39,336 nucleotides of DNA from a virus. Position 1 is the stretch's first letter; each line of letters opens with the position of its first letter. The DNA is taken from positions 1 to 39,336 of the IMG/VR virus record IMGVR_UViG_3300027852_000095; one strand, written 5' to 3'. Below, piece by piece: positions 18,583 to 18,731 of the stretch. The notes under the pieces were generated by a model, which was given only the letters and a program-made list of their open reading frames with translations, was not told where the DNA came from and made no database searches. Position numbers and translations under genes: made by a program.

Positions 18583-18697
18583 TAAAAAATCCCAACGGTT
18601 TCTTGGCTAGAAGAACAGAGCGGAAGCTCTTGGACAGAATCCACCGTTGGGAAATTTGATTTTTTAATGTATTAAGATTTTTTAATCTTCTAGCCAT
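18583..18697 (-). ncRNA. candidate small RNA or attenuator with a four-way junction
   Basis: From a predicted start near 18697 the transcript reaches a structure at 18652-18590: outer stem P1 of 10 bp (18643-18652 with 18590-18599), then P2 GGA/TCC (18640-18642, 18632-18634), P3 AGAGC/GCTCT (18626-18630, 18617-18621, loop TTCC) and P4 TTCTT/AAGAA (18611-18615, 18600-18604). Stems are separated by 0 or 1 base, so this is a compact perfect four-way junction. P1 is followed at once by six U (18589-18584). It is not a tRNA: no CCA end, no T-loop, P1 of 10 bp. Either a terminated small RNA or a cis attenuator of the gene at 18569. Confidence 0.6.
18584..18652 (-). terminator. terminator formed by P1 of the four-way junction and a U-tract
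   Basis: The P1 stem (10 bp, TCCCAACGGT with ACCGTTGGGA) closes the structured region and is followed directly by UUUUUU and then AUUU. This is the normal end of an intrinsic terminator, although the enclosed branches are more elaborate than usual. It would stop transcripts coming from 18704-18731 unless the structure is changed. Confidence 0.65.
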
Positions 18698-18703
18698 ATA
18701 CTC

Positions 18704-18731
18704 AATATACTCCGATTTCCACTGTTGTCAA
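18704..18731 (-). promoter_or_regulatory. sigma70-type promoter driving the structured leader RNA
   Basis: A perfect -35 TTGACA (18726-18731) and a -10 TATATT (18704-18709) are separated by 16 bp. The -35 box starts right after the stop of the gene ending at 18734. The expected transcription start is near 18697. Confidence 0.75.

Follow-up and report, generated by a model that had tools for sequence, protein, structure and literature searches.

The window analysed here, 39,336 nucleotides of viral DNA (IMG/VR record IMGVR_UViG_3300027852_000095), carries on its minus strand a putative short RNA whose main feature is a pseudoknotted terminator ahead of the operon of a DnaD-like replication initiator. 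A first-pass annotation had singled out the same RNA for its four-way junction, which is incidental. Judging from sequence, the element is probably an undescribed RNA switch that sets the amount of initiator.

Promoter, fold and gene context of the window RNA

A sigma-70-like promoter is predicted by sequence match at 18704..18731 on the minus strand (TTGACA-16-TATATT, with the -35 at 18731-18726 and the -10 at 18709-18704), between an upstream gene for a 97-aa protein, for which zero relatives were found, and a 131-aa gene. The first-pass annotation had proposed this promoter, and it holds up: it has 11 of 12 consensus matches with 16 bp spacing, and none of 100 local shuffles gave an equally good match just 5' of S1, the 11 nt with which the transcript is expected to begin. 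The site is in the top three of 51 promoter-like sites in 14 kb, a total that is itself at chance level.

The putative transcript would start at about 18697 and run for about 115 nt on the minus strand. A 63-nt part of it is predicted to fold into four stems followed by U6, with nearly zero unpaired bases at the junction and a stability of -31.9 kcal/mol, compared with -18.9 kcal/mol (sd 3.5) in shuffles (z -3.75; reached by 0 of 200). The terminator stem P1 (10 bp) pairs UCCCAACGGU (18643..18652) with ACCGUUGGGA (P1'; 18590..18599), and the U6 tract of the intrinsic terminator lies at 18584..18589, all on the minus strand. Within P1, on the same strand, are the predicted hairpins P2 (GGAU-UCU-GUCC; 18632..18642), P3 (AGAGC-UUCC-GCUCU; 18617..18630; 5 bp) and P4 (UUCUU-CUAGCC-AAGAA; 18600..18615; 5 bp), the last of which displays in its loop part of a segment that we term S1'. 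P1, P3 with its UUCC loop, P4 and the U6 tract are as annotated previously, but P2 has 4 bp including a U-G pair rather than 3. A leader peptide encoded by the 39-aa frame open across the RNA (18697-18578) was weighed but not retained; the frame has no ribosome site, and the class of RNAs described below has no consistently open frame.

The first gene past the terminator (18174..18569, minus strand) encodes the 131-aa "zinc protein", which has a CxxC...CC motif pair, and AAGGAG lies 6 nt 5' of its ATG. This protein has no Pfam or PHROG match and a single relative (34%), where an integrase gene lies directly upstream and the RNA is absent. Its stop is overlapped by the start of the gene for the DnaD-like replication initiator or helicase loader (17429..18181, minus strand; phrog_2514, 1.9e-28), which is in the same operon and on the same strand as the RNA, with one gene intervening. 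The replication region also encodes a large ATPase (21512-23179; phrog_7035, 2.4e-90) with weak FtsK- and terminase-like matches. It is probably HerA/FtsK-like and has only two distant relatives, on viral contigs, with no class RNA seen beside an initiator there. A Mom-like DNA-modification protein (15000-15635; Pfam 5.6e-38, phrog_1384 7e-61) and a RusA-like resolvase (13604-14011) are encoded elsewhere in the window.

The 5' end of the RNA can pair across the terminator stem

S1 (UGGCUAGAAGA; 18686..18696, minus strand), the presumed 5' end of the transcript, is 100% complementary to S1' (UCUUCUAGCCA; 18604..18614, minus strand). S1' spans the loop of P4 and portions of its arms, ending 4 nt before P1'. 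With the elements in the order S1 - P1 - P2 - P3 - S1' - 4 nt - P1' - U6, the S1:S1' helix crosses P1, either as a pseudoknot or as a competing fold. Such a helix arose in none of 2000 shuffles of the 60-nt leader (p = 0.0005, the floor of the test) and in none of 300 in a second test (p = 0.003, again the floor). When the window genome was searched for S1' partners with up to one mismatch, S1 was the sole partner. S1 pairing into the terminator loop is thus beyond chance, one of the features that define the class.

Promoter-like and terminator-like sites are common, and a long sequence will yield 11-nt complements by chance, as would be expected if the window phage alone had an ordinary terminator with fortuitous complementarity. 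However, the p-value of 0.0005 for S1 in its actual place, together with the recurrence and covariation described below, makes this explanation very improbable.

The same architecture precedes initiator genes in other phages

A BLASTN search for relatives was unproductive: against 50,697 phage records, the region gave only chance matches of 22-36 nt. A search with the exact P1 as a DNA pattern gave 10 matches, about the number expected by chance. One of these, L008, has the pseudoknotted order promoter - S1 - P1 - hairpin - S1' - P1' - U, and it led to the class. The sequence CCCAACGGT, common to L008 and the window, belongs to S1 in L008 but to P1 in the window and was therefore dismissed as a coincidence.

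We scanned the neighbourhoods of relatives of the window's DnaD-like initiator (phrog_2514). A combined P1 and S1 score of -28 kcal/mol or lower was found in about 11 of 69 upstream regions (900 nt), compared with about 0.8 per dinucleotide shuffle. Sixty further DnaD-upstream regions gave 12 matches (0-2 in shuffles), and another 102 gave 37, of which 27 are distinct (1-5 in shuffles). Over 0.9 Mb and both strands, 7-8 of the dozen best matches immediately preceded a DnaD-like gene in the same orientation. The order S1-P1-S1'-P1'-U-tract, in unrelated sequence, precedes DnaD-like initiators in about 20 phage types; S1' ends 0-13 nt 5' of P1' in most of the loci, and some of the RNAs lie only 5-50 nt from the initiator start codon. 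Promoter-like sites with at least 10 of 12 matches are present 5' of S1 at 8 of 25 loci (1.3 expected). Among the nearest DnaD relatives (L013, L118, L121-L126), another gene abuts DnaD and the class RNA is absent.

In a separate test of S1, long-loop terminator hairpins were chosen regardless of S1, which was then scored against shuffled leaders. Upstream of DnaD, on the same strand, S1 pairing was significant for 14 of 32 hairpins at p ≤ 0.05 and for 8 of 32 at p ≤ 0.01, compared with 3 of 58 and 0 of 58, respectively, in far-upstream and downstream controls (Fisher, 1.7e-5). The opposite strand of the same regions gave 4 of 18, as reverse-complement echoes predict. S1 pairing is not significant individually at some loci (L025, L067 and L112, and also L022, which is outside the tested list).

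What recurs across these phages is the terminator stem P1 with the crossing helix S1:S1', which the first-pass annotation had missed. The earlier suggestion of a small RNA or attenuator is supported to the extent that P1 and its U-tract recur before DnaD-like initiators. The four-way junction, on the other hand, is not conserved, and P2, P3 and P4 are private to the window phage.

Two loci, L067 (3791-3929) and L106 (2880-3002), have a second complementary pair, S0/S0', in the order S0-S1-P1-S0'-S1'-P1'. Since S0/S0' has the same crossing order, some members have two competing 5' elements. L008 contains two pseudoknotted terminators (1370-1900 and 3680-3880) with 11/12 promoters and without an adjoining DnaD gene; the one at 1370-1900 is beside tRNA-like units with the common 3' sequence GAGAATCTTTTTTGTTTATTA.

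An RNA with its own promoter and its own terminator might also be a free-standing pseudoknotted small RNA with other targets (host RNA or protein), and the two L008 RNAs, in a tRNA-like array and not ahead of DnaD, would fit that reading. The terminator would then be a mere 3' end, S1:S1' would shield the 5' end from nucleases, and the position near DnaD would be a convenient promoter-bearing gap. However, the RNAs repeatedly sit immediately 5' of initiator genes in the same orientation, sometimes 5-50 nt from the start codon. Moreover, a common target would require conserved sequence, and there is none across types. We consider a free-standing RNA unlikely.

Covariation in the A2 subfamily and recoding between alleles

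For one subfamily, A2, we aligned 15 distinct members. The helices compared were P1, an inner P1b, S1 and P0, a hairpin whose loop contains S1; of their 371 cells, all are paired (100%). This share has an upward bias, since the score used to select members favours pairing of S1 and P1. Such selection does not account for the two-sided changes, which occur at 12 of 25 pairs, including 4 of the 7 pairs in S1 (GC/AU/CG, AU/GC, AU/CG, CG/UA/AU). None of 500 shuffles attained any of five covariation measures, and slid partners gave at most 2 pairs with two-sided changes. As the collections hold no close relative of the window RNA, this covariation is evidence for the class and not for the window copy. 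With model R1, built on this sequence-conserved subfamily, the window was the best match outside it among 75 mostly non-training sources, although at a score that is not significant (19.4 bits, E 0.52).

A2 members, for example L212 (1181-1314), also have a variable helix S2/S2' (CCAAG/CTTGG, CAGAG/CTCTG, GGAAC/GTTCC and others) nested with S1, as well as invariant CTGCCGA / CGGC segments, which could pair or bind protein. Promoter motifs such as TATATTTGC suggest that A2 phages have Bacteroidota hosts.

The first-pass annotation had also raised the idea that the repeats act as DNA, extruding a cruciform that is read by RusA or by the initiator. Inverted repeats do adjoin a replication gene, and the RusA-like resolvase is encoded at 13604-14011. 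However, the signal is strongest on the coding strand, the U-tract is always 3' on that strand, and the covarying A2 helices keep G-U pairs. All of this indicates an RNA made from one strand, and we give a DNA element almost no credence.

Contig G008 has two alleles with a common promoter region and recoded S1/S1' and P1/P1'. The N-terminal domains of their DnaD proteins differ, while the C-terminal domains are nearly the same. The two ends of the contig (L106 2880-3771 and L014 201-1500) agree fully in their upstream sequence and almost fully in the C-terminal part, and one allele breakpoint falls at a TNKND(N)KNDKN linker. Either the assembly joined two variants of the phage, or the duplication is real. 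The linker is invariant and common to the DnaD-like initiators of the window (17429-18181), L014, L025, L051, L067 and L106. Because of this invariance the DNA that encodes the linker is repetitive, and it may serve as an origin or for recombination.

Comparison with known RNA systems

No account of the class was found in the literature searched (largely without subscription journals). In agreement with the first-pass annotation, which could name no RNA family and saw no tRNA, no Rfam 15 family reached its gathering score with the window RNA (matches at E ≤ 10 were at chance level), and ARAGORN found no tRNA/tmRNA fold in it. The relatives examined likewise missed the Rfam gathering cut-off. 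Nor does the site resemble a Type III toxin-antitoxin (ToxIN-like) system, as there is no tandem repeat and the downstream protein has no Pfam/PHROG match.

The skipping-rope RNA (RF02924) occurs in phages and has a pseudoknot with covariation support (PMC8501573, PMC7779021). In its consensus, a closing stem encloses three hairpins, but its conserved GAGGU / GAGAUG are absent here. RF02924 had no match in the window, L008 or L051 (E ≤ 10) or in 27 class loci (E ≤ 1-2); L304, a true skipping-rope member, scored 48.6 bits. In antiterminator/terminator leaders (T-box, trp, pyr; plasmid antisense attenuation), one of two exclusive folds is an intrinsic terminator (PMC7430163). In those leaders, antiterminator and terminator have bases in common, whereas S1:S1' of the window uses no bases of P1, and its competition with P1 arises from the crossing. 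IsrK of prophage Gifsy-1 has a terminated short and a read-through long isoform from one promoter, and the short acts on the long (PMC4825925). The class as proposed here would similarly have interacting terminated and read-through isoforms; IsrK differs in its antiterminator / anrP operon context and in acting on translation.

Closest in logic is the P4 CI RNA, where self-complementary leader segments terminate transcription into replication genes (PMC4825925); in the P1/P7 c4 RNA, complementary segments are displayed in loops (PMC12197685). As with seqA of P4, S1' of the window is complementary to an upstream leader segment, and the RNA is ahead of replication genes. Unlike P4, the window has no seqC, the RNA includes an intrinsic terminator that S1:S1' crosses, and the class carriers are without integrase where P4 is temperate. 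Rho-dependence and processing of CI are further features of the P4 system. We know of no sequence relation between the class and P4 CI or c4 RNA.

Carriers of the RNA lack integrase

Integrase (phrog_1) was detected in 0 of 41 RNA-bearing contigs and in 23 of 50 DnaD contigs without the RNA (p 6e-8; p 0.009 with relatives collapsed and metagenome contigs only), a contrast that is only suggestive because contigs may be fragments. The window record, which may be incomplete, is without integrase, as are the 40 other carriers. The class RNA was absent at 24 of 24 chromosomal DnaD loci, and model R1 had zero matches in 296 genomes of one phylum in a run without a positive control. The element seems to belong to non-integrating phages.

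These data bear on the possibility of prophage immunity of the P4 CI / P1 c4 kind, in which the short RNA would silence replication when a related phage enters a lysogen. The logic is that of P4 (PMC4825925), with leader segments that complement each other in front of replication genes, and the S1/S1' codes are private. On the other side, the absence of integrase from all 41 RNA carriers makes lysogenic immunity unlikely, the 24 chromosomal DnaD loci are without the RNA, and the window has no downstream second target site of the seqC type. We regard prophage immunity as distinctly improbable; the lifestyle data, while suggestive, favour dosage or superinfection control.

A possible mechanism of attenuation

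We computed folding of the nascent chain, considering nested folds only. In 10 of 11 RNAs, S1:S1' forms once S1' has been made and is replaced by P1 about 10-25 nt later. For the window RNA, the S1:S1' fold has -26.0 kcal/mol upon completion of S1'; for the full-length RNA the values are -33.7 kcal/mol for the terminator fold and -28.9 kcal/mol for the S1 fold. A kinetic attenuator needs two states of similar energy that form one after the other, as these do. In the formed terminator, the P4 loop CUAGCC has a computed unpaired probability of 0.78-1.0.

We propose that S1:S1' forms first during synthesis of the leader RNA and that, pseudoknotted with P1 and touching P1', it would slow or block P1. 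Owing to the contact between S1' and P1', the S1:S1' helix, once formed, should impede P1 topologically. With P1 delayed, polymerase would read through and initiator would be made; with S1 occupied, P1 would close and the short RNA would be released. The L1 and L3 lengths vary widely among class loci. Because some loci would not accommodate the full pseudoknot, S1:S1' and P1 may replace each other instead of forming together. The extra gene between the window RNA and the initiator also counts against an attenuator. Even so, a pseudoknotted attenuator with a terminated small RNA that controls the initiator operon is the explanation we favour, and we think it reasonably probable.

With less confidence, we infer a trans step in which S1 would be occupied by the terminated RNA itself, with S1' displayed in the P4 loop. 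Because that loop is largely unpaired, pairing of the short RNA with S1 on a nascent copy could impose termination. This would create a self-limiting loop, as more genomes would give more short RNA and less initiator. As the S1/S1' pair is private to each phage, such feedback would be confined to its own kind. We would only tentatively extend this to a protein-free control in integrase-less phages, in which the terminated RNA closes the terminator of its own operon through the private S1/S1' code, limits initiator and excludes replication of its own kind, and in which RNA and initiator N-terminus are swapped as a specificity cassette.

Implications for initiator control in phages

To our knowledge, little is known about the rationing of initiator in non-integrating phages. 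Leader RNAs that attenuate phage replication genes are already known. Since the class recurs by architecture and not by sequence, it would escape sequence and covariance-model searches, and its private S1/S1' pairs predict simple recoding experiments. If S1 pairing does control termination, these phages would attenuate transcription of their initiator operons by topology rather than by shared bases.
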